A stretch of DNA of 64,000 nt from positions 2,418,001 through 2,482,000 of the forward strand of contig NZ_CP049143.1 in assembly GCF_011044495.1 (NCBI RefSeq), read 5' to 3'. The notes under the pieces were generated by a model. That model searched no databases. It worked only from the letters and a program-made list of their open reading frames with translations, and was not told where the DNA came from. Origin of the DNA: Roseimicrobium sp. ORNL1. GTDB taxonomy: Bacteria; Verrucomicrobiota; Verrucomicrobiia; Verrucomicrobiales; Verrucomicrobiaceae. A program made the position numbers and the translations under genes. Below are positions 9,472-57,037 of this stretch, piece after piece (position 1 is the first letter of the stretch; every line of letters starts with the position of its first letter).

Positions 9472-9483
9472 GGGCTTGAGTTT

Positions 9484-13943: not shown

Positions 13944-14487
13944 CTTCGGTCTCCTTTCGCTTCTTCTCGGGGTGTTTCTTCTCGATGTCCTCGATGGGCT
14001 CCTCCATGACGGAGGCGTAGAGCTGGTGCTCCTCCCTTGAGAAGGGCGGCAGTCCGGCGGTGGAGCGCACGAGCACGGTGATGAGCTTCACCGTCATGCC
14101 GCTCACGAGGAGGAACACACCCACATCAAAGAGCAGCGGCGTGCCGATGTGCAGCTCGCCGATGAGCGGCACGTGGTGCAGGTGCCACATGTACTGCGTG
14201 AGGAACTGCTGCCCCACCACGACAGGAAGCAGGCCGGTCACGAGGGCGAGAGTCACGCCCGAGATGGCGAGACGCAGTGGATCCACCGGCAACTGATGGC
14301 GCAGCACATTCCAGCCGCGCGCCAGTCCGAGCAGGATGCAGGAGGTGCCCGTCATGAGACCCGCGATGAAGCCGCCGCCCGGCAGGTTGTGCCCACGGAA
14401 GAGGAGGTACACGGAGACGATGTTCACCAGCAGGAAGACAAGCTGGATGCATGCACGCAGCAGGAAGGAATCAGGTGTGCGGATCAT
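13933..14487 (-). CDS. mrpB: Na+/H+ antiporter subunit B (Mrp/Mnh)
   Basis: 184 residues with four hydrophobic segments. GHNLPGGGFIAGLMTGTSCI is the MnhB signature, and FDVGVFLLVSGMTVKLI follows. The hydrophilic C-terminus is long, rich in Glu and Lys (EDIEKKHPEKKRKETED). It overlaps mrpA by 4 bp and mrpC by 11 bp. Subunit B sits beside the C-terminal part of MrpA in the complex. Confidence 0.95.
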   Translation of the reverse strand: MIRTPDSFLLRACIQLVFLLVNIVSVYLLFRGHNLPGGGFIAGLMTGTSCILLGLARGWNVLRHQLPVDPLRLAISGVTLALVTGLLPVVVGQQFLTQYMWHLHHVPLIGELHIGTPLLFDVGVFLLVSGMTVKLITVLVRSTAGLPPFSREEHQLYASVMEEPIEDIEKKHPEKKRKETEDAD

Positions 14488-26412: not shown

Positions 26413-27357
26413 TTACTTTTTCAAATGCTTGTCAAAAAACTCCACCACCATGGGGCGGAGATCTTTTTGCACGGGCTGGAGATGGAAGGTGTGCGGGGCG
26501 CCTTCGATGATTTCGAGGTGATGTTCGATGCCGAGTTTCTGAAGCGCAGCAGCGAGGGTTTCTGACTGGCTCAAGGGCACGGTGGCGTCGGCGGTGCCGT
26601 GGAGGATGAGTATGGGTGGATCCTCCTTGTCGAGATGCGTGAGGACGGAGAATTGCTTGTAGAGTGCCGGGTCTTCTTTGCGGGACTTGCGCAGGGCGGC
26701 GACGTCCTTCCAGTTCTCCAGGTCGGCGGGGCCGTAGAGGTCCACGGCACAGCGCACCTTCGTTGAGAATTCGCCATAGGGACCGGCGGGATCGAGGTCG
26801 GGGCCGGTGACGGCGACCATGGTGGCGAGGTGTCCACCGGCGGAGCCGCCGATGGTGCCGATGTTGTCTGCATCGAGCTTGAGGCGTTCGGCATTTTTGC
26901 GAAGCCAGCGCACGGCGGTCTTGCAGTCGTGGAGGTTTTGCGGCCACACGACATTCTTGCTGTCCTTGTCCGCGAGCACGTAGTCGATGCTCATGCATAC
27001 ATAACCATGCAGCGCGAGGGTGGTGCCGATGTTCTTCTCACGCGTGGCGTCCTTCACGCCGCCACTCCAGCCGCCGCCGTGGATGATGACGATGCCGGGG
27101 TGCTTCTTGCCAACCACTTTTTCCTTGGGCAGGTAGAGGTCTGCCTTTTCCTTCCGGTCGGGGCCGAGGTAGTCGATGTTGGGTTCGACACGGACATCGG
27201 GGGATGCGGTGACGAGGTAGCTAGACGAGCGTGGTGGGACAAGAAGGGATTTTCCTTCCGTTTGGGAAGGTGGGCGCTCAGTCTGCGCGGGAAGGGTGTT
27301 CTCAGCACAGAGACCGAGGAGGGAAACGAGCAGGAGTGATGCACCGTGAAATTTCAT
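26413..27357 (-). CDS. Exported alpha/beta hydrolase (BD-FAE/esterase-lipase type)
   Basis: 314 residues from the ATG at 27357 (MKFHGASLLLVSLLGLCAEN, a signal peptide). A longer reading to 27633 passes through repeat copy C and is rejected. IVIHGGGWSGG supplies the oxyanion hole, GGSAGGH the nucleophile Ser, HGTADATVP the Asp and GAPHTF the His. This is the pattern of exported acyl or feruloyl-type esterases that act on polysaccharide side chains or small esters. It is close in type to the C-terminal half of the fusion protein at 40919-43546. Confidence 0.92.
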   Translation of the reverse strand: MKFHGASLLLVSLLGLCAENTLPAQTERPPSQTEGKSLLVPPRSSSYLVTASPDVRVEPNIDYLGPDRKEKADLYLPKEKVVGKKHPGIVIIHGGGWSGGVKDATREKNIGTTLALHGYVCMSIDYVLADKDSKNVVWPQNLHDCKTAVRWLRKNAERLKLDADNIGTIGGSAGGHLATMVAVTGPDLDPAGPYGEFSTKVRCAVDLYGPADLENWKDVAALRKSRKEDPALYKQFSVLTHLDKEDPPILILHGTADATVPLSQSETLAAALQKLGIEHHLEIIEGAPHTFHLQPVQKDLRPMVVEFFDKHLKK

Positions 27358-34777: not shown

Positions 34778-35932
34778 TTACTTCACCTCCACCGACCACA
34801 CCTCGGGCGAGCGGAAGCCGGGGCGGGCTTCGCCGCTGGGGATGATGATGCGGCCATTCCAAATCGTGGTGGGCACGGTGGCGCGGGAGATGGGGGCATC
34901 GGGGAGGCGATGCCAGTCGCCGGCGGAGACATCGAAGAGCAAGGTGCCCTTGGGGAAGCCGGGATGCTCGGTCTCGGGTTTGAAGCCGACCTTGCTGCCA
35001 TCGTCGCCACAGAGCAGCAGCAGGCCGCGCTCGGTGCTGGGCGCGGGAGTGCAGGCGGCGACGGCGACCTGCGGGACATCGGGCAGCTTTTCCCAGGTGT
35101 TCTTGCCCGGGGTGAAGCGGTAGGCGTCCTTGAGCCAATCGCGTGCAGGCTTGCCGTCCTTGTCCGCATGCAGAGCGGCGCCGGTGAAGAGGTAGAAGGC
35201 GCCATCATGCGTGCCCGCGGTGGCGAGCATACGCTCGGGTCCCGGCCACGGGGGCAGGGTCTGCCAGGTGGCATTGGCATTGGCGTCCGCGAGGTTCAGC
35301 GACCAGAAGGTATGCATGGCCTTGGTGGCATCTGGCTTATCAATGCCACCTGCCACATAGAGTGTATCACCAATGAGTACACCACAGGTATTGGCAAAGG
35401 GCTGGGGAAGGGAGGGAAGCGTGCGAGTGGTGACCTTTCCGGCTTCCCATTTCAAGGCATAGACGTCCGCGCGGTGTCCCTCCGCATTGCTGCCGCCGGC
35501 GCAGATGACTTCATCCTTCCACGTGACACTCACGCCGTAGCCGATGGGCTTGGGTAGCTTGCCTGCGTTGCGCCACTGGCCGTCGGGCTTGTCGAGCACC
35601 CAGATGTCATCATACCAAATTTTCGTGCCGCCTTCCCACGGGCGCTTTTCAGGGAAGTTTGCGCCACCGGCCACGAGGAGTGCGCCACCGCTCACGCCCG
35701 CATGCATGGCGGCGAAGCCTTCCTTGTCCGGCAGGTTGGGGAGCTGGGACCAGTGCAGGGAGGGCTGTCGTGTGGACGATTGCGCGTGGGACATTGGCGG
35801 TAGGCAGAGGGAGAGGGCGAGGGCGAGGGACAGGAGGAAGAGGGGGGGAACCAGAGACGCGGAGACGCGGAGGGAAGGGACTTTCGGACTCGTTCGCGAG
35901 GGAGACGCGGAGGTGTTTTTGTGATGTGCCAC
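34778..35932 (-). CDS. Exported kelch-type beta-propeller protein
   Basis: About 384 residues if read from the GTG at 35932; the first ATG after it (35794) would remove the signal segment VPPLFLLSLALALSLCLPPM. The body has repeated kelch motifs: GGALLVAGGANFP, YDDIWVLDKPDGQWRNAG, EVICAGGSNAEGHRADVYAL, TLYVAGGIDKPDATKAMHTF and GRIIIPSGEARPG. This is the NanM/galactose-oxidase-like propeller seen in sialic-acid mutarotases. The start lies in repeat DNA: the GTG is in a family 2 arm and codons just before the signal segment match an AGACGCGGAGACGCGG repeat. The mature body is secure; the start is not. Confidence 0.8.
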   Translation of the reverse strand: MAHHKNTSASPSRTSPKVPSLRVSASLVPPLFLLSLALALSLCLPPMSHAQSSTRQPSLHWSQLPNLPDKEGFAAMHAGVSGGALLVAGGANFPEKRPWEGGTKIWYDDIWVLDKPDGQWRNAGKLPKPIGYGVSVTWKDEVICAGGSNAEGHRADVYALKWEAGKVTTRTLPSLPQPFANTCGVLIGDTLYVAGGIDKPDATKAMHTFWSLNLADANANATWQTLPPWPGPERMLATAGTHDGAFYLFTGAALHADKDGKPARDWLKDAYRFTPGKNTWEKLPDVPQVAVAACTPAPSTERGLLLLCGDDGSKVGFKPETEHPGFPKGTLLFDVSAGDWHRLPDAPISRATVPTTIWNGRIIIPSGEARPGFRSPEVWSVEVK

Positions 35933-36157
35933 CTTGCGCGCAGCGCCTTGGAGTGCGGTGCGAAGCACCGCTTTGGGGCGGGTGAGGAGGTGGTTGAGAA
36001 CAGCAGCGGGAAGGTGGATGAAATCTGGGATGGTATGTGAGGGCTGGTGTGCGGAGCGGCGTTGGATTGGGGTGGGGCACTGCAGACACTCCGGCCCCAG
36101 GCTCCCAGCCAAAGCGGTGCTTCGCACACGCACTCCAAGGCGCTTCGCGCAAGGTGG
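35929..36157. repeat. Paired hairpin element, family 2
   Basis: The left arm (35929-35977) contains GCGCgcaGCGC and CGGTGCgaaGCACCG hairpins. The right arm (36109-36157) is its reverse complement with small changes. GGTCACGAGACGTTT follows at 36195-36209. Copies or pieces occur at 17531-17648, 46559-46805 and 63790-64000. Confidence 0.8.
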
Positions 36158-36252
36158 TTCGTGACTGGGTGGATTGGGTGTCAGCACGGGTGCGAGGTCA
36201 CGAGACGTTTTGCTGGGTGCCATGGGGGTGGTGTATCAGGATGTCCTGCTGA

Positions 36253-38973
36253 CTATTTCGCCGCACCCTTCAGCAGCGTGTAGATCACGAGGCAGGCATC
36301 GCCGCGGGTGATGGTCTCTGACTTGGCGTCGATGTGTTTTACGGCATCGCGCACCGTGTCTTCGTTCACCCCTTTCACGCTGCGCACCAGCTTCAGGAAG
36401 TCCTGCGTTTTCATATCCGCGGCATCGCGGATGGCGGCAGCCTGGGCGAGAGATGTGGCGAGCTGGCGGGCGATGCCGCTGTTGTTGCCACCACTTTCAT
36501 TTTGGCCGTTGTCCCCCAGCAGCTTCGCAAGTGCCTCTACCCAGAGTTTGCCGGTCAGCATATCGAGCCGGGCCGCGGCATGGACGTCATAGTCCTCAAA
36601 GAATCCCTGGGTGCCCAAATACTGCACGGCGGGGATCCACGCTTCTTCGTTTGTCACCTTCACATCATTGAAGAAGCTTACGAGGAATTGCTTCTCTGCC
36701 AGCGTGCGCACGAGCTTGCGGCTGTCCAATGCGGCGGGTGTCGTCTTGTCCTTGATGGCCTGTGCAGCGGCGAAGCCGGCGGCCTCACCGGTCTGCATCC
36801 ACACGGGCTCCAGGCGGATGGCGCCCCACATCACGTGCGTGGCGGAGAGGCAGATGGGTACAAGGAGATTGTCCACACCCTGCGGCAGCAGGCTGCGGTA
36901 GGGAATCTGCGCAGGGCGTGACTCCTGGGTGAGGATGAGCTTGCCGTCATACTTGAAGCCGGGGCGCGAGTCGGTGGTGCAGGAGTGGGAGTCCTGGTAC
37001 CAGTCGGTGGTGCCGATGCTGTCTGGCTGAATCGGTGTGCGCCCATAACCTTTCGCGGCGAAGCCATCGAGCTCGGTGAGCACATGGCGGCCCACGATGC
37101 GGCGGGCTTCGCGCACATACATTTCATAGGGGATATGGCCGTTGTCCGTGAACTCATCCTTGGGCAGGCCCCATTCCCGGAAGCCTGCGCGCGCTTTTTC
37201 AGAGACGGACTCGTCATTCTGCAGGAACCAGATGAGGCCGAGCCCGAAGTTCTTGTGCCGCTCGATGATCTTCTCACGTGTGGGCCAGTCCGCCTCGGGG
37301 TACGCGTGATTTTCGCCCGGGAGAATGGGGCTGTTCATGTGGGACTTCAGATTGGGCCCTGCATTCGTGGCGATGGATTTGCGGCCGTAGTTCACATACT
37401 CCTCGCGGTTGTAGCCGGGAGGTGGCTCGGTGAGCATGATGCGATTCGCGGGATCCTTCGTGACGCAGAAGCGGTAGTTGTAGGCCTGCACAGCACCGTC
37501 CGCGGTGAAGGGGCTGGTGGGATCCACGCTGCCCTGGCGGGAACCGTAGGGGCGGATGTTCAGCTTGCCCTCGATGGCGTCGACCGGAGCGGAGTCGCTG
37601 TCGATATTCACAAACGCCTTGCCCGCGTGCGGCTCATTGTATTCCGCGCGTGCTTCGCGGCCCACACGGAAGGGGACCTTCGCCAGCGCGAAGAGGTCGC
37701 CTTCATAGGTGCCATCGGCGAAGACGGTGGCCTTGGCGGTGATGTCATTCTTGGTGCCGTACTCGCGCAGGGTCACGCCTTTGATGATTGCGCCTTCGCG
37801 CTCCAGTGACACGGGATAGTGTGAGAGCAGCAGTGTGAGGTTCTTCTCCCCGGCGACGAGGCGATGGAACTCGCGCTCGTTCACCTTCGACTCGGCCCAG
37901 CTGATGGGATACTTCTGGTGTGAGTAGCGGATGATCTGATGATCCGGCGAATCCTTGCCGAAGCGCTCGATGTAGTACTTCTCAATATTCCCCAGCAACT
38001 CCGTGAAGAGCGGCGCGCGCGGGCCGCCGTAGAGTGCGTCCCACTGCATGAGGCCATTGCTCATCATGCCGCCGATGTGGCGGTTGTGCTGCACGAGGAG
38101 AACGGTGAGACCTTCACGCGCGGCGCGCACAGCACAGGCAGTGCCACCGGCGGTCGCACCGACGACGATGAGGTCGTACGATTTGCCGTTCACCTGAGCT
38201 GCGGGCACGTCCTTGGCGAGGGCGATGGGTGCGGTGTCGGGCGTGAGGTTGGTTTTGCGTTCGGCTGTCTTTTCCGCGAGGGGCGAGAGTGCGGCAGCTG
38301 CGGCGAGACGGGCGCGGGCGGCGGCGTGCTCGGGAGAGGACTCGACCTCCTTCGAGCGCGTGGATGCGGGGACGAGCGTCTTCGCGTTCTTCTCCGTGGG
38401 CGTGCTCATGGCGAAGCCGGAGGGCGCCTTGCCATCGCGCTCGGACTTCGCCAGGGCGATGGGCACGAACTGCACGCCATCCACCACCACATAGCCATCG
38501 GTGTCCTTGTTCGTGATTTCGAGTGATGCCTTGCTGCCCGCTTCAAATCGGAACACACCCAGCGCGCGTGGTACGCCATTCTGCAGGGCTTCCTCACGCT
38601 GGTTTATCGTGATGGTCTTGGCGCCGTCGGCACTCTGGATGGTGACGGGCACATTGGTGGCGCGGTTTTTGGTGGCCACATAGAGGAGGCGCACTTCGTA
38701 GTCGCCGGGCTCCGTGATCTTCGGCGTGAAGACGGCACTGGCTTCGCCCTGGTGCTTGTTGTCATCGTGGCGGTAGCTCTTGCCGAAGAGCGGGGCTTGC
38801 TTCTCGCTGGTGACCCAGGAGCCTTTGTACTCGGCGGCATCATCGTCGAGGATGAGCCCGGCGGGACCGGCGGCAGTGGCAGCGGCATGGATGGTGGTAG
38901 CGGAAGAGAGCAGGCACAGGCCGCCCGCAAGGGTCAGCGAGCGCGCGGCACGAATGATGGGATGGTGTATCAT
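36253..38973 (-). CDS. Exported FAD-dependent oxidoreductase with N-terminal golvesin-like domain
   Basis: 906 residues with a signal peptide (SLTLAGGLCLLSSATTIHAA). Residues ~35-170 form a golvesin-like beta domain (ILDDDAAEYKGSWVTSEKQA, PGDYEVRLLYV, VVVDGVQFVPI). From ~265 comes an FAD_oxidored (PF12831) module: DLIVVGATAGGTACAVRAAR is the Rossmann glycine loop, followed by HIGGMMSNGLMQWDALYGG. An ARADFE/GDLFALA-type motif appears as FADGTYEGDLFALA. The last ~130 residues are helical. The substrate is unknown; these enzymes are frequent beside carbohydrate genes in this phylum. It precedes the kelch gene on the same strand, separated by a family 2 element. Confidence 0.88.
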   Translation of the reverse strand: MIHHPIIRAARSLTLAGGLCLLSSATTIHAAATAAGPAGLILDDDAAEYKGSWVTSEKQAPLFGKSYRHDDNKHQGEASAVFTPKITEPGDYEVRLLYVATKNRATNVPVTIQSADGAKTITINQREEALQNGVPRALGVFRFEAGSKASLEITNKDTDGYVVVDGVQFVPIALAKSERDGKAPSGFAMSTPTEKNAKTLVPASTRSKEVESSPEHAAARARLAAAAALSPLAEKTAERKTNLTPDTAPIALAKDVPAAQVNGKSYDLIVVGATAGGTACAVRAAREGLTVLLVQHNRHIGGMMSNGLMQWDALYGGPRAPLFTELLGNIEKYYIERFGKDSPDHQIIRYSHQKYPISWAESKVNEREFHRLVAGEKNLTLLLSHYPVSLEREGAIIKGVTLREYGTKNDITAKATVFADGTYEGDLFALAKVPFRVGREARAEYNEPHAGKAFVNIDSDSAPVDAIEGKLNIRPYGSRQGSVDPTSPFTADGAVQAYNYRFCVTKDPANRIMLTEPPPGYNREEYVNYGRKSIATNAGPNLKSHMNSPILPGENHAYPEADWPTREKIIERHKNFGLGLIWFLQNDESVSEKARAGFREWGLPKDEFTDNGHIPYEMYVREARRIVGRHVLTELDGFAAKGYGRTPIQPDSIGTTDWYQDSHSCTTDSRPGFKYDGKLILTQESRPAQIPYRSLLPQGVDNLLVPICLSATHVMWGAIRLEPVWMQTGEAAGFAAAQAIKDKTTPAALDSRKLVRTLAEKQFLVSFFNDVKVTNEEAWIPAVQYLGTQGFFEDYDVHAAARLDMLTGKLWVEALAKLLGDNGQNESGGNNSGIARQLATSLAQAAAIRDAADMKTQDFLKLVRSVKGVNEDTVRDAVKHIDAKSETITRGDACLVIYTLLKGAAK

Positions 38974-39311: not shown

Positions 39312-40553
39312 CTACTTGGTGATCGCCGCCGCCACACCATCACTCACCTCCGCCACATACAGCCGCGTCCAGGTGCCGTCGCTCACGTTGAAATAGATGC
39401 GCTTGCCATCTGCGCTGAAGACGGGATGCGGATGGGAACGCCGCCACGAGCGGGCACCACCGTCGTTCTTGAACGAGTGCAGGAGGATGTGATTGCCACC
39501 GCGTGCGTCGGCGAGGACGATGCCCCAGCTTTTGGCGTCTCCGCCGAACTTGTCCATAGTGGAGTCGGTGACGATGAGCTTCCCATCCGGACTGGCGGAG
39601 GGATGATCTCCACTCACCGCGGGCAGGCCGGGCAGGCGGGTGCCTTTACCGTTGTCGCTGTCGAAGAGCGTGAAGGAAGTCTCGACGATGGTCTTGCCAT
39701 CCGGATGCCAGGAGGGATGGCCCCAGCGATCGCTTTGATAGAGGAATCGATTCTCCGCGATGCTGTAGCACACGAGGCCGAGGCGCTGGCTCGCGGCGGT
39801 GCCGCGTGGATCGCGCGTGATGCCGGGTGCGGCGAGCTTGAAGAACACGCGGTCTGCCTTCGGGCTGAGCACGGGGAAGAAGATGATGAAGGGCTTTCCT
39901 GCAAACGCCTTGTCCACCCACGCGGTGTACTTCTCCTTCACGGCCTGTGCGGTGAGCACGGTCTTGATTTCACCGGTGGCAGCATTGCAGAGTTCCAGGT
40001 TCGTGTGCTCACCCGGATCCCAGTGCTGGCCGTAGAGCGGCACGAGGTCACCATTCGGCTGGCCCCAGCTGGAGAGACGGTTCTTCGCAAGGATGCGCTC
40101 CTTGCCGGTATCGAGATCCACGGCACCGACGAACCACGTGCCATCGCGCAGTCCGTGGAAGGTGATGCGCTTGCCATGGGAAAGCCATTGCTGGCAGGCA
40201 GCACGGTGGGCGTCTTCGGTTTCGATATTCGTGACGAGCGTCTTCTCTTCGCCGGTGCTGCGGTTGATGATGTGCACTTCACCGGTGTGGCCATTCAGCG
40301 CGGTGGAGGAATAGAAGAGGACCTGCGTGCCATCCGGACTCTCCGGGCAGGTGTTGAAATACGAGTGGATGCTGTGGCGCTCGGCGGTCTCCGGCAGCAC
40401 GGGGCGAATCTTTACCCCGCTGCGCCAGGAGGCGAGAGGGTCGTCTTTTGTTTCCGCATGCGCCGTGATCGTGGCGATGCAGGTGAATGCGAGCCCTGCG
40501 AAACCAAGAAGCGTGGGCAGGACGCGGGAAAGGAAGGTGCGTTGAGATTGCAT
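39312..40553 (-). CDS. Exported TolB/oligogalacturonate-lyase-like beta-propeller protein
   Basis: 413 residues from the ATG at 40553. A reading to 40970 crosses repeats and is rejected. The signal peptide is FLSRVLPTLLGFAGLAFTCI ending near AHA. The propeller shows repeated blade motifs: NTCPESPDGTQVLFYSS, QQWLSHGKRITFHGL, FPVLSPKADRVFFKLA, HPSWHPDGKTIVETS and HPVFSADGKRIYFNVS. His-rich blade motifs resemble oligogalacturonate lyase (PelW/Ogl, PL22), in which His and Glu bind the metal. Lyase activity is not proven, and it could simply be a WD40-like PD40 protein. Confidence 0.8.
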   Translation of the reverse strand: MQSQRTFLSRVLPTLLGFAGLAFTCIATITAHAETKDDPLASWRSGVKIRPVLPETAERHSIHSYFNTCPESPDGTQVLFYSSTALNGHTGEVHIINRSTGEEKTLVTNIETEDAHRAACQQWLSHGKRITFHGLRDGTWFVGAVDLDTGKERILAKNRLSSWGQPNGDLVPLYGQHWDPGEHTNLELCNAATGEIKTVLTAQAVKEKYTAWVDKAFAGKPFIIFFPVLSPKADRVFFKLAAPGITRDPRGTAASQRLGLVCYSIAENRFLYQSDRWGHPSWHPDGKTIVETSFTLFDSDNGKGTRLPGLPAVSGDHPSASPDGKLIVTDSTMDKFGGDAKSWGIVLADARGGNHILLHSFKNDGGARSWRRSHPHPVFSADGKRIYFNVSDGTWTRLYVAEVSDGVAAAITK

Positions 40554-40570
40554 GGCGCTACGGCTAGCTG

Positions 40571-40670
40571 GCACCCCTGCCGGGGTGCGGTGGGTATGGA
40601 TGGCGATCCGGTGGTGTTCGGTCGCAGGGCTGCCTCGACCACCGGCTACAGGCTGATATCCCTCCGGGAT
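40571..40670. repeat. Three-hairpin intergenic element
   Basis: Consecutive stems: GCACCCCtgccGGGGTGC (40571-40588), CCGGTGGT with ACCACCGG (40608-40645), and ATCCCtccGGGAT (40658-40670). Similar CCGGTGG and CCCCGGCAGGGG repeats are, to my recollection, widespread in this group of bacteria. Confidence 0.6.
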
Positions 40671-40790
40671 GGGGAAGAGAGACGTGGGTGAGGGGTTTGA
40701 TTCGGAGACCAGGGGATTATGAGTCCCTTGTTCTAACGGCTCCGGCGGAACTGATACACGGAATCGCGAAAGCAGTTCAGGAGACTTAAA

Positions 40791-40874
40791 CGCCAATGGG
40801 GACAGGAATGTCCCCACTCCTTGAAGGCGGTGCATGCTTTCAAGGAGCGGGGGCATTCCTGCCCCCGATGGGAG
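40791..40874. repeat. Paired hairpin element, family 6
   Basis: Left arm hairpin GGGGACaggaatGTCCCC then ACTCCTTGAA; right arm TTCAAGGAG then GGGGGCattcctGCCCCC. The arms pair with each other, and each folds alone, with compensating changes between GGGGAC/GTCCCC and GGGGGC/GCCCCC. It lies just after the gene ending at 40919. Confidence 0.75.
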
Positions 40875-40918: not shown

Positions 40919-43546
40919 CTACTTGATCAATGAGAGCGATCTCAGAAACGCATCGGACTTGGCCATGCATTCATCATACAGCGGGGCGGTGCGCATGAGG
41001 TAGCCGTGGGCGCCGCCTTCATGGATGATGAGTTCGCTGCGGTTTCCAGCCTTGAGCATTTCCTCGTGGAAACGCTTCGCGCCGGCGAAGGGCGTGACGG
41101 TATCGCCGGTGCCGTGGAAAGTGATGGTGGGAGGCACGCCGGGCTTCACGCGATCTACAGGGGAGAGCTGCTTCCACTTCTCGCCGATTTTCGCGTTGCC
41201 ATAGCCTTGAGCAGAGGTGTCGATGACGGGGAAGAGGAGGATCAACGCATTCGGCGTGGATGAGACAGAAGTGCCTTCGCCTTCTTCATTCACATCATCG
41301 AAGAGCGCGGTGCTCACGGCCACGTGCCCACCGGCGGAACCACCGCTGACGACAATCTTGTCCGGGTCGATGCCGAACTCACTCGCATGCGCACGCACGT
41401 AGCGCACGGCGGAGCGGCCATCCTTCACACAATCAAACACGGTATTGGCTGGTTCCTTGCCCAGCAGACGGTACTCCACGCTGATTCCCACCATGCCGAG
41501 CTTCGCGAAATGGTCCGCGAAGGGATACATGCGGCTGGCCTGGCCTCCGCGCCATCCGCCTCCGTGGATCACGATGTAACACGGGCGCTTGTCAGTGGAC
41601 TTGAAGCCCTCCGGTTCGAAGACGTGCAGCATCAGGTCACGGTTCACGACATGCTTATACGCCACCTTGCGCGTGGGCTTCAGCTTGGCGGCGAGTGTGT
41701 CCACATGGTCTGGTCCTTTGGGCTCGGTAGTAGGTGCGGCCGTTGGAGTGGAGGCGGGCTTGGTTTCTGCCTTGGTCGATTTCTTCGGCGCGGCTGGCGT
41801 GTCGAGGTCTGCCTGCACTTTCTTCTCCTTCCACTCGATGATTTGTTTGTCCTTCAAGAGCTGGGTGCGTAGCTTGGCCTGGTCCACCTTCTGCACGGGA
41901 ACCTTGTCATCGATGGCGTAGCTCGCGGCGGTGGCGGCGCTCTGGCTGCTGATCATGAAGACGGGCTCCATGCGGATGCTGCTGAAAGCGGTGTGGCTCG
42001 CAGACAAGGCGAAGGTGACAAAGAGATTCTCGCACTCGGCTTGCTTCGGCACGATGGCGCCGTAGCCGATGGGATAGGGCGGTGCGCCATCGCGACCGAT
42101 GGCGGTCTTACCTTCACGAATGACCACGCCGTCCTTCACGATGCGACGGATTTCATGCGTATCCGTGCCGTAGGAGCCGAGGCCTACGGAGTGCGGCGCG
42201 ACCTCGCGGCCAAAAGTGTAGTGCTCGGTCAGCACGAGGTCGGAGACCATGCGGCGCGCTTCGCGAATGTAGAGCTGATGAGGCCAGCCGCCGTTGTCCT
42301 GGAACTCATCCTTGGGCAGGCCGAACCGCTTCATGTCATCACGCACCTTCGCAGGCACGCGTGAGTCGGTGGCGAGGAAATACAAAAGGCCGCGATGGTA
42401 GAGCTCGTGCTCCTTCGCAATCTGCGTGCGGCGGTCGTAGCTGGCCTCGGGCCACTCCCAGCTCGCGCCGGGCATGTTTCCGCCGAAGGTGGCGGTGTTG
42501 AAGTCCCACTTGTCATTCGGCAGCGCGTCGTGCTTGGAGAACCAACGCAGGTCCATGTCATCGCCCATGGCGAGGCAGCCTTCGATGAAACGCGCGACGA
42601 GTTCATAACGCTTCGCATCATAACCCTCCGGCGCGGTGATGGGGATGCGGTCCTTCGCGGTGGTGAGGCAGAGGCGGAAGCAGTAGGCCTGCACACCGGG
42701 TGCGGGCTCGCCGGGGTTTCCGGGGGTGCCTGCATTTAGTAGAGGGAGCAATCCGCTGCGCGGTTCACCAGGAGAAACGTAGGGGTCGAGCGGCAGGTCG
42801 CGGTCCCACACGCCCTGGCCACCGGGCACGCGACCGGTGGGGCCGGGCTTGAGGTGATTCGTGCGCGGCTGGTACTTCTCCGTGTAGTGGATGCCGTTGT
42901 AGGTCTCACCGTACTTGGCATTGCCCTCGCGCATCAGGGTGTAGGACACCTTTGCGCGCGCCATGAGGTCGCCCTCATAGGTGGCGTCGATGAACATCTT
43001 CGCACGAACGACGGTGCCGTCCTCCATGGTGAGCTCGGTGAGGCGAGCGCCGTCCTTCTTCGCACTCGCCAGGCGGGCGCTGAAATGCACGGGCACGTTT
43101 GCCTCCTTCGCCATGTCGGTGAAGACCTTCTCCGCGATGTGCGGCTCGATGGAATAGGCACCGCCGGTGGCTGGGCCGCCACCCTTGCTCACAAAAGGCT
43201 GGTCCCACGCGAGCGTCTTCCCATAGCTGGCGACGAGACGGGTGAAGTATTCCCGCGCAATGCCACCCACGGTGCGCGGGTCACCGATATCCACCGCGCT
43301 GAGGCCACCGGCTGTCATGCCGCCGAGGTGTTTCCCCGGTTCGAGGATGACGGCCTTCTTTCCCATGCGCGAGGCCTGCACCGCAGCCGCGACACCGCCG
43401 GAGGTGCCGCCGTAGATGCAGATGTCTGCGTTGATGACTTCGGCGGCATGGGTGGAGGAGGAGAAGGTGATGCCCGCGAGCAGGGTGATTGCGGTGGTCT
43501 TCAGGCGGGAGGTAAGAAGGAGGAGGGGGACAGGGAAACGTGCCAT
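40919..43546 (-). CDS. Exported fusion: FAD-dependent oxidoreductase plus C-terminal esterase
   Basis: 875 residues from the ATG at 43546, with a signal peptide (TTAITLLAGITFSSSTHAAE). Residues ~36-585 are a PF12831-type FAD oxidoreductase: DICIYGGTSGGVAAAVQASR, HLGGMTAGGLSAVDIGDPRT, FIDATYEGDLMARA. A Lys/Pro/Thr linker (~600-620) follows. Residues ~628-875 are a full alpha/beta hydrolase, with HGGGW (661-665), nucleophile Ser in GGSAGG (737), Asp in HGTGDTV (815) and His in GGAHGY (847). The two enzymes are in one frame without interruption. The pair suggests linked oxidation and ester removal on one substrate. The hydrolase half resembles the separate gene at 26413-27357. Confidence 0.9.
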   Translation of the reverse strand: MARFPVPLLLLTSRLKTTAITLLAGITFSSSTHAAEVINADICIYGGTSGGVAAAVQASRMGKKAVILEPGKHLGGMTAGGLSAVDIGDPRTVGGIAREYFTRLVASYGKTLAWDQPFVSKGGGPATGGAYSIEPHIAEKVFTDMAKEANVPVHFSARLASAKKDGARLTELTMEDGTVVRAKMFIDATYEGDLMARAKVSYTLMREGNAKYGETYNGIHYTEKYQPRTNHLKPGPTGRVPGGQGVWDRDLPLDPYVSPGEPRSGLLPLLNAGTPGNPGEPAPGVQAYCFRLCLTTAKDRIPITAPEGYDAKRYELVARFIEGCLAMGDDMDLRWFSKHDALPNDKWDFNTATFGGNMPGASWEWPEASYDRRTQIAKEHELYHRGLLYFLATDSRVPAKVRDDMKRFGLPKDEFQDNGGWPHQLYIREARRMVSDLVLTEHYTFGREVAPHSVGLGSYGTDTHEIRRIVKDGVVIREGKTAIGRDGAPPYPIGYGAIVPKQAECENLFVTFALSASHTAFSSIRMEPVFMISSQSAATAASYAIDDKVPVQKVDQAKLRTQLLKDKQIIEWKEKKVQADLDTPAAPKKSTKAETKPASTPTAAPTTEPKGPDHVDTLAAKLKPTRKVAYKHVVNRDLMLHVFEPEGFKSTDKRPCYIVIHGGGWRGGQASRMYPFADHFAKLGMVGISVEYRLLGKEPANTVFDCVKDGRSAVRYVRAHASEFGIDPDKIVVSGGSAGGHVAVSTALFDDVNEEGEGTSVSSTPNALILLFPVIDTSAQGYGNAKIGEKWKQLSPVDRVKPGVPPTITFHGTGDTVTPFAGAKRFHEEMLKAGNRSELIIHEGGAHGYLMRTAPLYDECMAKSDAFLRSLSLIK

Positions 43547-43723: not shown

Positions 43724-44137
43724 TCAATACTCGACGAACTCCACAGCGAGTGTCCCCTTTTTGCACTTGGGGCAGGGTTCACCGTTCTTGAATTCCATCT
43801 TGAGTGCATGTGCGCCGCAGTCAGGGCAGGGGACAGTATCAATGGGATAGTGCACTACTTCGAATGTGCGACCGGTTGAACTGATGACGTCTCGGGATTC
43901 TGCGGTAAAGACTACCCCGGTGGGGAGCAGCTCCACTCCCGGTCGTTTTCGGGTGCCGGATTGCACGACTCTTTGCAGTTCGATGATTTCACCCACGCGA
44001 GGCCCCATTCGGGCTTCTGTGGGACAACTGAAACGTGTGAGGCACGCGATGCAGAAGCACCTCGATTCACTCGTGTGGTGGCTGTGCCCGCCCGAGAAAT
44101 TGAAGCTGCACTCGCTGCACGTTGCATGCTGTCCCAT
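43724..44137 (-). CDS. Zinc-ribbon hypothetical protein
   Basis: 137 residues. N-terminal CSECSFNFSG and CFCIACLTRF plus C-terminal PCPDCGAHAL and PCPKCKKGTL provide four CxxC-type pairs, so two zinc ribbons are likely. The middle (GEIIELQRVVQSGTRKRPGV) is a beta-rich linker. No membrane segment. Family not recognised. The gene is bracketed by inverted family 4 arms at 43669-43704 and 44252-44283, like a cargo gene. The ATG at 44137 (MGQHATCSEC) fits the first metal pair. Confidence 0.65.
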   Translation of the reverse strand: MGQHATCSECSFNFSGGHSHHTSESRCFCIACLTRFSCPTEARMGPRVGEIIELQRVVQSGTRKRPGVELLPTGVVFTAESRDVISSTGRTFEVVHYPIDTVPCPDCGAHALKMEFKNGEPCPKCKKGTLAVEFVEY

Positions 44138-44295: not shown

Positions 44296-45975
44296 TCACA
44301 CCATCGCCAGATCAAAATAATCAATCTCCATCGGCTCGCCGGATTCGAGGGTGAACTCGATCTTGTTCTTCCCATCGATGAGCAGATTCGCAGGCACGGC
44401 CCAGGCGCGCATTTGTGCGGGGGTACCGAGCATGGTGGTGTAGGGATTGGGAAAGGGCTCGGACACCATCGCATTGGCGGCGAGTTCGGTGCCGTTGATG
44501 AAGGCCTTCCACCTTCCGGTGGGGTACTCGGGAGCGAGTTGCACGCGGAGGCGGCCGTTGCGCTGCCAGCCGTCCTTGGGCGGGGCGAGGTCGAGGGTGA
44601 AGAGGGCCGTGTCGCCGGTCTCAACCTTCCGCGGGAGAAGGGGCGGGCGCTCGAAGGGATTATTCCAACCGGGAGCGAGGAACCAGTGCTGCGGCTGGCG
44701 TGCGAGCCACTCCTTGTCTGCCATCTTGTTGAATACCTCAAACGGCGGTTCGCTGAAGGGACCGCGTTCGGGGCCGCCGTGCTCGCGGTAGTAGGCAAAG
44801 TTGAAGGCGCTCACGCCATCCGCACCGCGTGCATACGCGAGGTGGGCGGTGGTGTTGTACTGCTCCTTCGTGGTGCGGCGGAAGGGGAAGGTATCGTAGC
44901 CGGGCACAATCTTCGTCCCATTCCAAATGGAATGACACATCTCATGATACACCGCGGCATCAGGGATGCTCGTGCGGATGGCCGCCAGGTCCGTCTGCTG
45001 CACGGTGAAGTAGCTCACGGAGAGGTTCACCATGTCCAGCCCGGCGGCGACCATGTCGGGCAGGTGGATGCCGAGTGGGTCGTGCGCCTTCAGGATGGCG
45101 GGCACGCGTGCGCAGAGCCAGCGGCGTTTCCCACCAATCTCGGTGCGCTTCAGCAGGGCGCGCACATCACTGACAAAGGAGGTCATGATCTCGCGCCGCT
45201 GTGCCTGGTTCGTCTCCTCCGGGCGGAAGAAATTGTAGAAGCGCATGAAGTCGAGCTCGATGCCATCGAGGTCGTAGGTCTCGCAGAGTTCCTCGATGAG
45301 CTTGAACTTGTGCGCACGCACTTCGCGCTCGGCCCAGTTCTGCACAAGGTCGTAGCCGCGACCCTTTTCGGACTTCTCGCGCAGCCAGTACTCCGGATGT
45401 TCCACATAGTGCCGCGTGACACTCATGCCGATGCTGGTGCCGGGCTTGTCCTTGGGCTCGAAGAGGGCGCGCTCCTTGTGATGCGCGTCATTCAAGCGGA
45501 TGGAGATGAATCCTGCCTGGCCGCGGGCCTTGCAGCGATCGAGGAAGATCTTCACGATATCGCCGCCGTGGAGGACGAAGTTCCCGAAGGAGTCCGGCTT
45601 CGTGCCGTAGCGCTGCTCGATCCATTCGTAGTGCTCCTTGAGCGGGAAGATTTTGCTGGGCCACATGGGCACCATGCCGAGGCCGGGCTGCAGGAGGTGC
45701 GCGTCCACTCCAGTGCCCGCGACCTCATCCACGCTGGCCTCGATCATCTCCTTGCGCAGGGGCGCGCCCTTCGGGTGCCAGGGGGCGGTGCAGCCGGTGA
45801 TGTTCGTGGTGTCATTGCTGTAGAGCACCTTGAAGGGCGCCTTGTGCCCGGGGCCTACGGTGACATTGGCCGCGACCGCGGTGGTGGTAGGAATGAGCGC
45901 GTGATGCCCGGCCAGCGCTGCCGTGGTGGCAGTGACCGTGTGGGTAAGGAAATGGCGGCGGGAAATGGGGGGCAT
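44296..45975 (-). CDS. Tat-exported TIM-barrel glycoside hydrolase-like protein
   Basis: 559 residues. MPPISRRHFLTHTVTATTAA is a Tat signal. Residues ~60-430 look like a TIM barrel of the GHL10/putative glycosidase group: KVLYSNDTTNITGC, VDAHLLQPGLGMVPMWPS, FISIRLNDAHHKERA, and YDLDGIELDFMRFYNFFRPE with the likely acidic catalytic residues. A C-terminal beta domain follows (GRLRVQLAPEYPTGRWKAFI). I cannot name the substrate. It lies beside other exported carbohydrate-type proteins. Confidence 0.82.
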   Translation of the reverse strand: MPPISRRHFLTHTVTATTAALAGHHALIPTTTAVAANVTVGPGHKAPFKVLYSNDTTNITGCTAPWHPKGAPLRKEMIEASVDEVAGTGVDAHLLQPGLGMVPMWPSKIFPLKEHYEWIEQRYGTKPDSFGNFVLHGGDIVKIFLDRCKARGQAGFISIRLNDAHHKERALFEPKDKPGTSIGMSVTRHYVEHPEYWLREKSEKGRGYDLVQNWAEREVRAHKFKLIEELCETYDLDGIELDFMRFYNFFRPEETNQAQRREIMTSFVSDVRALLKRTEIGGKRRWLCARVPAILKAHDPLGIHLPDMVAAGLDMVNLSVSYFTVQQTDLAAIRTSIPDAAVYHEMCHSIWNGTKIVPGYDTFPFRRTTKEQYNTTAHLAYARGADGVSAFNFAYYREHGGPERGPFSEPPFEVFNKMADKEWLARQPQHWFLAPGWNNPFERPPLLPRKVETGDTALFTLDLAPPKDGWQRNGRLRVQLAPEYPTGRWKAFINGTELAANAMVSEPFPNPYTTMLGTPAQMRAWAVPANLLIDGKNKIEFTLESGEPMEIDYFDLAMV

Positions 45976-52553: not shown

Positions 52554-54050
52554 CTACCTCGGCCCCGCCACCTTCCACCCCGCGTGCAGAATCGCGGACA
52601 TCTCCTTCATCTTGTCTGCATTCGCGGCATCGCTGGCGATGTTGGTATCTTCCTGCGGGTCCTTCTTTTCGTCGTACAACTCCACGCCCATGTCATTGCC
52701 TTCGCGGTCCTTCCACTCGGTGTAGCGCCAGTCGGTGGTGCGGACGCTGCGGCCCATGATTCCTTCCTTGCCGGGGCGGAGGTACTGGCTGAAGGCGGCT
52801 TTCTTCCAGGGCTTGGTGGGCTCCTGGAGCAGGGGAGCGAAGCTCGTGCCTTCGAGATGGGTGGGTAGTTCGAGTCCGGCGAGCTCGGTGAGGGTGGGGT
52901 AGAGATCCACGAGTTCCACCAGTGCGCTGCTGCGCTGACCGGCGGCCCTTTGCGCGGAAGAGGGAGCGCGTACGATGAGCGGGACATGCGTGCCGAGTTC
53001 GAAGTTGGTCATCTTCGTGAAGAGGCGGTGCTCGCCAAGGTGGTAGCCGTGGTCACCCCAGAAGACGACGAGGGTATTCTCACGCAGGCCGAGGCGGTCG
53101 AGTTCCGCGAGCACGCGACCGACTTGTGCATCCATGAAGCTCACGCAGGCGCGATAGCCGCGGATGAGCTTCAGCGCGGTGGCGTCATCGATATCGCCCG
53201 TGGCGGGGATGCCGCCGTAGGTGCGGAGTTCGTAGCCATTGTGAAAGGCGGGCTCGGGTGCGCCTTTGGTGCGGCAGTAGTTGTCCGGGAGTTTGATGCT
53301 CTCCTCGGGATAGAGGTCCCAGTACTTCTGCGGGCAGGTGAAGGGAAGATGAGGCTTCACGAAACCCACGCCGAGGAAGAAGGGCCTGTTCTCGTTCTTC
53401 ACGCGTTGCAGAGTCTCGATGGCCTTGAGCGCGGTCATGCCATCGGGGTAGACATCGTCAGACTCGGGCGAGGCTTCGAAGGGTGGTGCGCGCAGAATCT
53501 TGGGGCGCTTGTCGGGTGGCAGCTTCTTGAGGCTGGCGAGGAAGTCATTCGATTCCTTCGTGAACCACTGGCGGTAGGGCTCGCCGTGATACCACGCGGG
53601 CTCGCTCCATGATTGCGGGTCATCGCCGGGTTCGCGCTCGCTGTGGTGGAAGATTTTTCCGAGGGAGAGGGACGTGTAGTCGTGGTTCTTGAAATGCTGC
53701 GGGAGTGTGACCACGTCCGGCATCATGGGCCGGAGGAATTTGTTGTTCGCCATCACCTTCGTGGTGTCGGGCCGCACCCCGCCGAGCACGCTGGCGCGGG
53801 AGGGATTGCACACGGCGAACTGGCAGTAGGCGTTTTCAAACAAGGTGCCTTCCTGCGCGAGGCGGTCGATGTGCGGTGTGTTCATGTGCGCCGCGCCGTA
53901 GCAGGCGAGCTCCGGGCGCAGGTCATCCACAGCGATGAAGAGGACATTCATCGGAGGCTTCGACGACTTCTCCGCGGCGTGTGATGCGAGTGGCACGCAG
54001 ATTAGGAGGGGGGCGAGAAGCAGGGGAAAAAGTCGGGACGGCAAGGTCAT
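52554..54050 (-). CDS. Exported sulfatase (iduronate-2-sulfatase-like)
   Basis: 498 residues with a signal peptide (RLFPLLLAPLLICVPLASHA). MNVLFIAVDDLRPELACYGA opens the alkaline-phosphatase-like fold with metal-binding Asp pair. CNPSR near 81-85 is the C/S-x-P-x-R motif in which Cys becomes formylglycine. VVFWGDHGYHLGEHRLFTK carries the later metal and substrate residues. The YHLGEH form is typical of iduronate/choline sulfatase-like S1 enzymes. It should remove sulfate from polysaccharides. An anaerobic or FGE maturase must be encoded elsewhere. Confidence 0.93.
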   Translation of the reverse strand: MTLPSRLFPLLLAPLLICVPLASHAAEKSSKPPMNVLFIAVDDLRPELACYGAAHMNTPHIDRLAQEGTLFENAYCQFAVCNPSRASVLGGVRPDTTKVMANNKFLRPMMPDVVTLPQHFKNHDYTSLSLGKIFHHSEREPGDDPQSWSEPAWYHGEPYRQWFTKESNDFLASLKKLPPDKRPKILRAPPFEASPESDDVYPDGMTALKAIETLQRVKNENRPFFLGVGFVKPHLPFTCPQKYWDLYPEESIKLPDNYCRTKGAPEPAFHNGYELRTYGGIPATGDIDDATALKLIRGYRACVSFMDAQVGRVLAELDRLGLRENTLVVFWGDHGYHLGEHRLFTKMTNFELGTHVPLIVRAPSSAQRAAGQRSSALVELVDLYPTLTELAGLELPTHLEGTSFAPLLQEPTKPWKKAAFSQYLRPGKEGIMGRSVRTTDWRYTEWKDREGNDMGVELYDEKKDPQEDTNIASDAANADKMKEMSAILHAGWKVAGPR

Positions 54051-54203
54051 GACGCGCGGAGGAAGATAAATTTCAAATCGGCGAGCGCGTGTAGAACGAA
54101 GGCGCGGTGGGGTTGTTGCGGCGAAGTTGTGGTTGTCTCAGGGTCTTCTTGTGAGACAGAAGGACGGCACAGGAGCGTGATGCACAGGTATGATCCAGAT
54201 ACT

Positions 54204-54399
54204 GTGACGCGCAGCGTCCCTGGACTGCGTGCAGCCTGCTGCCGCTTTCCAGAGTCCACAGCCTGCTGTGGTGATGGTGATACTCGCTTGTATGGTAAAG
54301 CCCCAGGAAAGAGTGGCGACTTCGTCGCGGTGCAACGTGCAGCAGGCTGCACTTCAGGAAAGCGGCAGCAGGCTGCACGCAGTCCAAGGCCTTCGGCGC
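54204..54399 (-). repeat. Multi-hairpin element, family 1, copy E
   Basis: Reverse core. The left end has GACGCgcaGCGTC preceded by the tail in reverse (GATCCAGATACT). The right end has GCCttcGGC. It lies between the sulfatase start and the GNAT at 54427, and with copy F it brackets the GNAT pair. Confidence 0.85.
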
Positions 54400-54426
54400 A
54401 GCTTCGATAACCCAGCGATATTGCAT

Positions 54427-54855
54427 TCACACAGACGGCTCATCGTGCACCAGGCGCTTGCCCATGGAAATGACCTCATCCAATCCATAGCCGAGCGCGT
54501 GGTAGAAGGCTGCGGCTGCGGCGTTGGTGGTGCGAATCTGCAGATTGATCTTCGGGCAGCCGCGCTCCAGCAGCAGGCGCTCTGCCTCGGAAAGGAGGGC
54601 GCGAGCGTGACCGCGGCGCTGATGCGCGGGATCCACGGCGAGGTAGTTCAACCAGCCGCGATGTCCTTCATAGCCTGCCATGACGGAGGCGATGAGGTGT
54701 CCGCTTTCCTCACCGACGAGGAAGAGCTCGGGTTGTACTTGCAGCTTTCGCTGGATGTCTTTGCGGGGGTCATTCCACGGTCGCACGAGATCGCATTTCA
54801 CCCACAGGGCGACGATGGCCGCTTCGTCTTCGGCGCGAAAGGGGCGGATGATCAT
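54427..54855 (-). CDS. GNAT-family acetyltransferase, YpeA-like
   Basis: 142 residues from the ATG at 54855, matching the ~141-residue E. coli YpeA. MIIRPFRAEDEAAIVALWVK, LVRPWNDPRKDIQRKL, AVDPAHQRRGHARALLSEAE and KINLQIRTTNAAAAAFYHAL are visible in order. Its ATG overlaps the stop of the upstream GNAT gene (54852) by 4 bp, so translation is coupled. Confidence 0.92.
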   Translation of the reverse strand: MIIRPFRAEDEAAIVALWVKCDLVRPWNDPRKDIQRKLQVQPELFLVGEESGHLIASVMAGYEGHRGWLNYLAVDPAHQRRGHARALLSEAERLLLERGCPKINLQIRTTNAAAAAFYHALGYGLDEVISMGKRLVHDEPSV

Positions 54856-55352
54856 GGGGACGACGACGGCGATGGTAACGATGCGGACTTGAGCGACTTC
54901 AGGAAATGCAGCTTCGCATGACCGTGCGAATCCCAATCGGGAAATTCACCGGCGATGCGGTAGCCATGCTTTTGATAAAACCCCGGCGCTTGGTAGGACA
55001 TGGTGTCCACGTGTGCATGGATGCAACCGCGTTGGGCTGCGATGTGCTCTGCTTCTGCCAGCAGACCCGCGCCGATGCCGTGGCTGCGCCAATCGGGATG
55101 CACGGACATGATGGAGATGCGCAACCAGGAGAACTGGGTGTGGGCGAGGAGGCCGCCGATGATTTCGCCTTCTGATGTCTTCGCAGTCAGCACGAGTGGT
55201 TTCGCTTCGTGCTCTGGCGAAGTCCACTTCTCCATGAACTCCGGATTGGAGGTCCAGTTGTGCTGGCGGAGCCACTCGCGGATGGGGTCGCACTCGGGGG
55301 CGTCTTCGTCAGCGGCGGGGGTGATGTGCCAGGGGAGGGAGGGAGATGCCAT
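54852..55352 (-). CDS. GNAT-family N-acetyltransferase
   Basis: 166 residues from the ATG at 55352. The longer reading to 55604 passes through copy F and is rejected. LRISIMSVHPDWRSHGIGAG holds the acetyl-CoA loop, DTMSYQAPGFYQKHGYRIAG the end. The insert ECDPIREWLRQHN is typical of YncA/toxin-unrelated GNATs; substrate unknown. It is the first of a coupled pair with the gene at 54427. Confidence 0.88.
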   Translation of the reverse strand: MASPSLPWHITPAADEDAPECDPIREWLRQHNWTSNPEFMEKWTSPEHEAKPLVLTAKTSEGEIIGGLLAHTQFSWLRISIMSVHPDWRSHGIGAGLLAEAEHIAAQRGCIHAHVDTMSYQAPGFYQKHGYRIAGEFPDWDSHGHAKLHFLKSLKSASLPSPSSSP

Positions 55353-55417
55353 GTGTGAAGTGATAGGGCTCAAATGGATCCAAGCAAGCGTAGATAAACA
55401 CGATTGAGCCGGATGCT

Positions 55418-55618
55418 GTGACGCGCAGCGTCCCTGGACTGCGTGCAGCCTGCTGCCGCTTTCCCTCAGTGCAGCCTGCTGCACGCTGTGCCGCGACGAA
55501 GTCGCCTGTCGTTCTCCGTTGAACTGGGGATTACCAGCGAGTGTCATCATCGCCACAGCAGGCTGTGGACTCTGGAAAGCGGCAGCAGGCTGCACGCAGT
55601 CCAAGGCGCTTCGCGCGT
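55418..55618 (+). repeat. Multi-hairpin element, family 1, copy F (core flipped relative to tail)
   Basis: Forward core: GTGCAGcctgCTGCAC first, then GCGACgaaGTCGC, then CCACAGcaggCTGTGG. The tail (GCCGGATGCT in reverse) is on the left side, not the right as in copies A, B, D and E. The left end is GACGCgcaGCGTC; the right end is GCGCttcGCGC. Confidence 0.85.
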
Positions 55619-55695
55619 GATGGTTCGTCGGCGAGGACTTGTGAACCTCCCAGAGCGTGCACAGTTACAGACAATTGGACACAGTGAAAATCACC

Positions 55696-56889
55696 CTACA
55701 GCAACGTCAGCGGATTCTGCCGTGTCTTCAGCGGCAGGGTCACGCGCTGGCCGCCGAGACGATGCGACTCAAACACTGCAGAGATGGCTTCGATGGTGGT
55801 GCGGCCTTCCTGGGCGCTGCACAGGGGATCGCGATCTTCCTTGATGGCGGCGATGAGGTCCTGTCCGGCGAGGAGGTGGCCGCCGCAGAGTTCCTTGAGA
55901 TTCTCAATCGGTTCCGGCTTGCCGATGCCAGCAGAAGAAATCGGCACCCAGGCGCGGGGCTTGGTGACGGGGCGGAAGGGGCTGCCTTCCAGGTAGTGGG
56001 CAATCGGTTCTTCATCGATGCGCAGATCAATGATGCCGCCGTTGCCGATGATCTGCACGCCGAAGCCGGCGGTCTTCGCGCCAGCACCCTGCACGGAATC
56101 AAAGAAGACAGGGAGGCTGCTTTGCATCTCGAAGCGCGCGTGCACTTCATTTCCCGCAAGCGGTCCGATGCCTTCGGCGCCGTCCACCACATCCGCCTTG
56201 GTCACGGGCTTGCCGTTTTGCAAGACGGTGGCGGTGCAGGCGAGGTAGTCGCCGGCGAAGAAGTTCGTGAGGTTCAAGAGGTGTGAGCCGAGCACCCAGA
56301 GATCCAGGCTGCCGCCGCGCGGGTCTTCCTTGCCACGGGTGCGGTATTCAAGAGGACGACCGATGGCGCCGTCCTTGATGAGTTGGACAATGCGGGGCAG
56401 CGCGGGGTGATAACGATTGCGATGGGCGAGGGCGAGTTTGCACTTCGATTTCGCGCAGGCATTCACCACTTCATCGGCCTCCACGAGACTGCGGACGAAA
56501 GGTTTCTCAAGGTAGATGCCCTTCGCGCCGGCAGCGATGGAGGCCATGATCATCTCATGATGCTGGTCGATGTGGCGCGGGCCGATGGAGACGATGTCGG
56601 GCTTCACTTCCTCCAGCATCTTGCGGTAGTCGGCGTAGCCCTTGCTGAGCTTGAGCTTGGCCTGTGCGCCCTCGAGGCCCTTTGGGTCGGCATCTGCTAC
56701 GGCGACGATTTCAGACTCGGGAATCTTCAGCCACATGGTATCGAGCCCGTGGCCGTAGGCGCCGCGTCCGGTGTGGCCGATGACGGCGACGCGCATTTTC
56801 TTTTCACCGGGACCCGCGGCAAAGGAGGAAGAGGCGGCGGATGCGGCGAGCGTGGCGGCGGTGGTGGAAAGGAAGTGGCGGCGATTCAT
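55696..56889 (-). CDS. Tat-exported Gfo/Idh/MocA family oxidoreductase
   Basis: 397 residues from the ATG at 56889. MNRRHFLSTTAATLAASAAS is a Tat signal. The NAD loop is MRVAVIGHTGRGAYGHGLDT, and GIYLEKPFVRSLVEADEVV holds the conserved EKP motif. RNRYHPALPRIVQLIKDGAI and FRP(V) are in the C-terminal domain. It lies 148 bp after a DUF1080 gene on the same strand; oxidation of a glycoside to its 3-keto form and cleavage by DUF1080 are linked in known systems, so the two may work together. Confidence 0.9.
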   Translation of the reverse strand: MNRRHFLSTTAATLAASAASSSFAAGPGEKKMRVAVIGHTGRGAYGHGLDTMWLKIPESEIVAVADADPKGLEGAQAKLKLSKGYADYRKMLEEVKPDIVSIGPRHIDQHHEMIMASIAAGAKGIYLEKPFVRSLVEADEVVNACAKSKCKLALAHRNRYHPALPRIVQLIKDGAIGRPLEYRTRGKEDPRGGSLDLWVLGSHLLNLTNFFAGDYLACTATVLQNGKPVTKADVVDGAEGIGPLAGNEVHARFEMQSSLPVFFDSVQGAGAKTAGFGVQIIGNGGIIDLRIDEEPIAHYLEGSPFRPVTKPRAWVPISSAGIGKPEPIENLKELCGGHLLAGQDLIAAIKEDRDPLCSAQEGRTTIEAISAVFESHRLGGQRVTLPLKTRQNPLTLL

Positions 56890-56918
56890 GGGGGAGGTGC
56901 TGGGAGGAATGGGTGCAG

Positions 56919-56970
56919 TGAGTTCAACGCAGAGACACAGAGACGCAGAGGAAACTTCGGAGACTGAGGA
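56919..56970. repeat. Single arm of the TCTGCGTCTCTG family
   Basis: Reads GTTCAACGCAGAGACACAGA and on to TTCGGAGACTGAGG, matching the arms at 52371-52506. It lies in the short gap between the DUF1080 gene and the oxidoreductase gene. Confidence 0.65.
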
Positions 56971-57037
56971 ATACGGATGATTCAGGGAACGCAGGATTTG
57001 CATCCGTCCATGCTGAAAACTTGAAACTGAAAACTGC

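Follow-up and report, generated by a model that had tools for sequence, protein, structure and literature searches.

The window analysed here, a stretch of 64,000 nucleotides from the soil bacterium Roseimicrobium sp. ORNL1, carries on its minus strand an open reading frame of 875 residues (40919-43546; ATG at 43546, stop at 40919-40921, no internal stop), which encodes a PF12831 oxidoreductase followed by an alpha/beta-hydrolase esterase (Table 1). The initial annotation had described both domains in one protein, joined by a Lys/Pro/Thr linker. With exact coordinates assigned, both Pfam domains lie above their cut-offs and the linker is present as a stretch rich in Lys, Pro, Thr and Ala; it is two residues longer in G001, the second Roseimicrobium genome. 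Upstream of the ATG, the frame of the fusion stays open (TTG at 43660).

Table 1. Features of the fusion gene and of its gene run (window positions; residues are those of the fusion protein).
Feature	Position	Strand	Basis or remark
Upstream neighbour, conserved, glycoside-hydrolase-like	44296..45975	-	Beside the FAD gene in several relatives
Signal peptide region, residues 1-35	43442..43546	-	Hydrophobic core, THA-A-type end, no twin arginine; read from the sequence and orthologue N-termini
FAD-dependent oxidoreductase domain PF12831, residues 41-563	41858..43426	-	Pfam; model pLDDT 89.8
Lys/Pro/Thr/Ala-rich linker, residues about 570-612	41711..41839	-	Sequence
BD-FAE / TtEst2-like alpha/beta-hydrolase esterase domain, residues 628-875	40922..41665	-	Profile and structure-sequence matches
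Catalytic Ser737 codon (GGSAGG)	41336..41338	-	Alignment to solved esterase and relatives
Catalytic Asp815 codon	41102..41104	-	Alignment to solved esterase and relatives
Catalytic His847 codon	41006..41008	-	Alignment to solved esterase and relatives
Downstream neighbour, conserved, PD40 beta-propeller	39312..40799	-	Frame open to 40970
Second PF12831 oxidoreductase with N-terminal Golvesin_C, same gene run	36253..38973	-	Pfam; conserved in G001
Permuted NanM-like kelch mutarotase, end of gene run	34778..36223	-	Profiles; conserved in G001

The fusion gene is part of a run of five genes (glycoside-hydrolase-like, FAD-esterase, PD40, Golvesin-FAD and kelch), which is kept in G001. The glycoside-hydrolase-like (GH-like) protein is 57-60% identical to six aligned relatives and has no Pfam family above the cut-off (GH18/GHL10 match below cut-off only), and its structure model is poor (pLDDT 48.8). 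For the PD40 neighbour, an identity as oligogalacturonate lyase was rejected, the E-value being only 0.063. A frame of 137 residues between the GH-like and fusion genes (43724-44137) has no Pfam family and no match in G001 at 1e-20. Near the run, the minus strand at 52554-58735 carries genes for a sulfatase, a GFO/IDH/MocA oxidoreductase and a 3-keto-disaccharide hydrolase; in the loci L040, L041 and L043, a sulfatase of the same type precedes the GH-like and FAD genes.

The FAD half matches the complete PF12831 (FAD_oxidored) profile (positions 1-416 of 416) with 316.1 bits (cut-off 27, E 6.3e-94), and its predicted structure (pLDDT 89.8) contains a FAD-type Rossmann part. Against solved structures, the 50 Foldseek matches listed have a TM of 0.36 or less, the VIA structure comparison reaches Z 18.1 over about 180 residues with proteins of the thioredoxin-reductase and Thi4 type, and the profile search gives a best E of 4e-5 (60 of 75 matches listed). 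Since the matches listed fall mainly within the FAD-binding part, they locate that part and name no function. The ORNL1 genome alone has 19 PF12831 matches at 1e-40, and proteins of this family are numerous in these bacteria and little-characterised.

For the esterase half, BD-FAE (PF20434) matches residues 649-829 with 98.1 bits (cut-off 26.8, E 6.8e-28, profile positions 8-214 of 215), Abhydrolase_3 also matches with 69.6 bits, and further alpha/beta-hydrolase models are weaker. The best match to the named esterases of NCBIfam (LipQ, arylesterase lp_1002 and others) has 68.3 bits against a cut-off of 700, and all 12 models listed stay below their cut-offs, so none of those names was applied to this half. 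All 85 esterase segments aligned, some of them repeats from overlapping loci, have Ser737, Asp815 and His847. An HGGG oxyanion motif lies at residues 661-664; across the 85 rows its His is present in 73 and its three Gly in 83, 83 and 84. The best solved relative is 5ao9 (187 bits over 224 residues), which, from matching residue numbers, we take to be TtEst2, a carboxyl esterase of Thermogutta terrifontis. The two have in common the places of Ser, Asp and His, the GGG oxyanion motif and the Abhydrolase_3 type; unlike the fusion, TtEst2 stands alone, without an oxidoreductase. In the alignment, the three residues of the fusion fall on Ser126, Asp216 and His248 of this enzyme (numbering from PMC4655241). 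The triad is complete, as the initial annotation had claimed, and the half has all that serine-esterase catalysis requires. That paper describes TtEst2 as secreted and most active on pNP-acetate. BD-FAE itself, a bifunctional feruloyl/acetyl xylan esterase (6TKX), shares PF20434 with the esterase half, with lower similarity (41 bits to 6tkx). The GH43-CE fusion 6MLY, by which, according to PMC8165983, an esterase of the BD-FAE group is already known joined to a carbohydrate enzyme, matches with 33 bits, its partner being a glycoside hydrolase and not a flavoprotein. The separate esterase of the window at 26413-27357 (frame to 27633), earlier described as being of the same type, does belong to the same Pfam family (167.6 bits) but shares only about 30% identity with the esterase of the fusion.

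The sole other Roseimicrobium genome searched, G001, has the fusion at 92% identity over residues 1-875, which rules out a chance frame and a frameshift. Compared between ORNL1 and G001, the two halves have Nei-Gojobori dN/dS values of 0.054 (FAD) and 0.107 (esterase), dS being about 0.5 in both; these low values indicate that both halves are kept by purifying selection as working coding sequence. An assembly error or frameshift joining two genes, named beforehand as what would overturn the fusion, would agree with the two genes found in relatives outside Roseimicrobium; however, the ORNL1 chromosome (7,957,748 bases) was assembled as one circular contig at 193-fold PacBio coverage (PMC7330248) and the independent G001 carries the fusion as well, which already refutes this explanation and leaves it a negligible probability. 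The gene is a young, real fusion in Roseimicrobium.

The distribution of the two halves was followed in a family set of 68 genomes, with FAD orthologues counted at a limit of 1e-200 (all rows used) and esterase orthologues taken from 36 of 48 rows (at least 61% identity, 35 genomes), leaving out 12 paralogue rows of 46-56% identity. The FAD orthologue is present in 41 genomes and the esterase orthologue in 35; both are found in 29, fused in 2 and separate in 27. Six of these 27 have the orthologues on the same strand within 12 kb, three have them on one contig 110-214 kb apart, and the rest on different contigs. Two separate unrelated genes in the relatives had been foreseen as a counter-case to the fusion, and this picture was found in part, the genes being separate in 27 of 29 genomes, 21 of which have no pair of them within 12 kb on one strand (some contigs are short). 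Stand-alone PF12831 orthologues are 69-83% identical over the FAD half in Verrucomicrobiaceae outside Roseimicrobium and 71-75% in Rhodopirellula and Stieleria (Planctomycetota). They are mostly frames of about 560-630 residues, or are joined to Golvesin_C, BNR_2 or a second FAD domain, and among the ORFs examined none outside Roseimicrobium is joined to this type of esterase.

A survey of the domain architecture, proposed together with the initial annotation, was run over family, class and phylum genomes and plasmid records, and the pair was seen only in the two Roseimicrobium genomes. The esterase profile applied to ORFs of at least 80 residues picked out six entries that have the two domains in a single frame, all of them Roseimicrobium copies (168 FAD ORF entries, overlapping loci counted repeatedly). 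No second case was found among 80 loci that the genome-contig scan retained out of 580 relatives or among 30 stretches with long FAD frames, and none of 87 matching plasmid records covers 80% of the fusion query. Likewise, neither 384 class genomes nor 387 phylum genomes gave another whole-query match among the matches listed (two candidates per genome scored, strict E-value limits). Phyla beyond Verrucomicrobiota were covered by the plasmid-record search and the genome-contig scan only. In the open-access library, titles and abstract openings gave no literature on a PF12831-esterase pair. The domain pairing is apparently new and genus-restricted, with both component families already known.

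In six single-contig genomes (the length of G141 entered rounded to 4.9 Mb), 2, 4 and 8 of 82 PF12831 genes, the fusion itself counted, have a BD-FAE gene within 3, 6 and 12 kb, respectively. This proximity is not significant (shifted means 1.0, 2.0 and 4.0; P 0.27, 0.14 and 0.06); the genome-contig scan was unusable for this test because its search peptides included esterase ones. A distant PF12831 gene is directly followed by an esterase-type gene on the same strand at five loci, of which L072, L074 and L075 come from that scan, biased to esterase peptides, and L174 and L175 were chosen for long FAD frames. Gene order shows no general link between the two families, and the case for a FAD-esterase link comes from these five loci, from the orthologues of the two halves and from the fusion. 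In L074 (Adhaeretor mobilis), the gene directly behind FAD_oxidored (12243-14891) encodes an esterase, an alpha-L-fucosidase and a CBM-like domain in one frame.

A threonine-dehydratase-like gene (PALP and Thr_dehydrat_C; all rows of its search counted) accompanies both halves. Of the 20 genomes that have it together with the FAD gene, 12 carry the two within 12 kb on one strand; for the esterase gene this holds in 6 of 18. One genome of the family set has all three in a row, G064 (locus L050, by coordinates and a 100% match), where the FAD gene is followed in turn by the dehydratase-like gene, the esterase gene and a BNR_2-Golvesin-FAD gene. The dehydratase-like protein has no match at 1e-100 in either Roseimicrobium genome (ORNL1 being G000), so an ancestral order of FAD gene, threonine-dehydratase-like gene and esterase gene is proposed here, in which loss of the middle one would have placed the esterase directly behind the FAD gene and may in this way have given rise to the fusion. 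Gene loss need not coincide with fusion, since genus g2 also lacks the dehydratase-like gene at 1e-100, yet has its halves unfused; the three proteins scanned between them in the g2 locus L014 are a NUDIX/NrtR regulator and two ADP-ribosylglycohydrolases, of NAD/ADP-ribose metabolism. In L016 (G030), a frame matching an IS200-like (Y1) transposase (8893-9747) is found between the FAD and dehydratase-like genes.

Both halves are habitual, promiscuous fusion partners, and exported mosaic proteins are common in this bacterial group. On the side of the flavoprotein, FAD orthologues continue into Golvesin_C at the C-terminal place in L044 and L069, and into BNR_2 in L032. A single frame of 1766 residues in L031 (2236-7533) contains FAD_oxidored, BNR_2, Golvesin_C and a second FAD_oxidored, and looks like an end-to-end fusion of genes that are adjacent in other genomes. 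If Golvesin_C is taken as non-catalytic, its position in L044 and L069, equivalent to that of the esterase half, would suit a role of this half mainly as an anchor of the oxidoreductase to an acylated polymer, hydrolysis coming second; however, such a role is improbable given the complete triad and the low dN/dS of the esterase half. On the side of the esterase, relatives of 52-56% identity lie C-terminal to BNR domains in nine family genomes, the frame of G060 being broken near an undetermined base. Frames with a BNR (sialidase-like) propeller and this type of esterase, of 1.1-1.2 thousand residues, occur in L138 (5120-8818), L139 (4829-8518), L137 (6735-10109) and L140 (3960-7382), with a SASA acetylesterase domain after the esterase in L138 and L139; the BNR-esterase architecture was checked by Pfam in L135, L138 and L140. 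In these BNR-esterase and BNR-esterase-SASA fusions of sister genera the esterase is C-terminal to a glycan-type domain, as in the Roseimicrobium fusion, and the partner differs. More distant esterase relatives are joined to PepX-type hydrolases, sulfatases and DUF6807. In the esterase tree (62 of 85 rows used; most rows left out are repeats or short, L116 and L129 being left out without being repeats), the two FAD-fused esterases form a clade with 100/99 support and the BNR-fused ones a distinct clade with 100/100, which suggests that the joins arose independently; the node above the FAD-fused pair being open, the tree names no nearest stand-alone relative for it.

Signals for export were checked with a simple hydropathy rule on N-termini. 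A hydrophobic core is present in 38 of 39 N-termini of the FAD half, fused and unfused, and in 23 of 23 esterase N-termini; Tat-like motifs are found in 0 of 39 (three with RR before the core) and 0 of 23, respectively, and the N-terminus of the fusion has no twin arginine. With hydrophobic signals and no Tat motif, the simplest route would be Sec export with FAD bound afterwards, and the exported protein with late FAD insertion suggested in the initial annotation agrees with the Sec-like signals predicted on both halves.

The other functional proposals of that annotation stand in part. A sugar or lignin-like substrate had been suggested; the neighbours and the alternative fusion partners are of carbohydrate type, so a sugar fits and a glycan is favoured over lignin; a lignin-like compound found no support here. 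The fusion probably serves the trimming and oxidising of acetylated sugars as its putative substrate. That the halves carry out consecutive steps on one compound is plausible; the non-significant general proximity of PF12831 and BD-FAE counts against it. An adjacency accident, in which neighbouring genes for exported enzymes were joined by deletion and kept, each half working on a different substrate, is a serious alternative with roughly one chance in three: the halves are separate in nearly all genomes with both, the esterase is often beside the dehydratase-like gene and not a glycan gene, the two families show no significant general proximity, and the esterase family joins many different partners. 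However, the fusion survived the synonymous divergence between the two Roseimicrobium genomes, and chance hardly explains why this esterase has been joined to glycan-acting domains repeatedly.

The best explanation overall, held with slightly better than even confidence, is that two exported enzymes of older origin were fused in frame within Roseimicrobium alone, for coupled deacylation and oxidation of a glycan, each half having a stand-alone orthologue in sister genera and both being on one chain in the two Roseimicrobium genomes. Under this coupled deacylation and oxidation, the protein would leave the cytoplasm by Sec and bind FAD after export. The esterase half would strip a glycan of acetyl or other short acyl groups via Ser737-His847-Asp815, and the flavoprotein half may oxidise a hydroxyl on the deacylated sugar or on one next to it, with electrons going to oxygen or a c-type cytochrome. 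The products could then be passed to the co-encoded propeller proteins and the GH-like protein. A more specific version is unlikely, in which the esterase would uncover a sugar hydroxyl and the PF12831 half would oxidise it to a keto group, starting a non-hydrolytic 3-keto-type cleavage of an acylated exopolysaccharide, its later steps falling to the 3-keto-disaccharide hydrolase and the GFO/IDH/MocA protein encoded at 55.7-58.7 kb. Because esterase chemistry is easy to assay and the fusion is a natural one, acylated glycans become a concrete guess at the substrate class of PF12831, and the fusion is useful mainly as a handle on these little-characterised proteins.

Just upstream of the FAD orthologue in L014, a frame of 1362 residues (3-4088) encodes a 3-keto-disaccharide hydrolase, GDSL, DUF7133, HEAT and cytochrome c domains, and this multidomain cytochrome c protein is a possible electron acceptor for the flavoprotein in genus g2.

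Two copies of a REP-like palindrome of the GGGGACAGGAATGTCCCC type lie between the fusion and PD40 genes (window 40798-40815, plus strand, and 40849-40866, minus strand), with no exact match in the G001 stretch L013. The ORNL1 genome has 119 such sites within two mismatches, against 0 for a reversed control, and among the matches listed many form inverted pairs at fixed spacings of about 116 or 282 bases.
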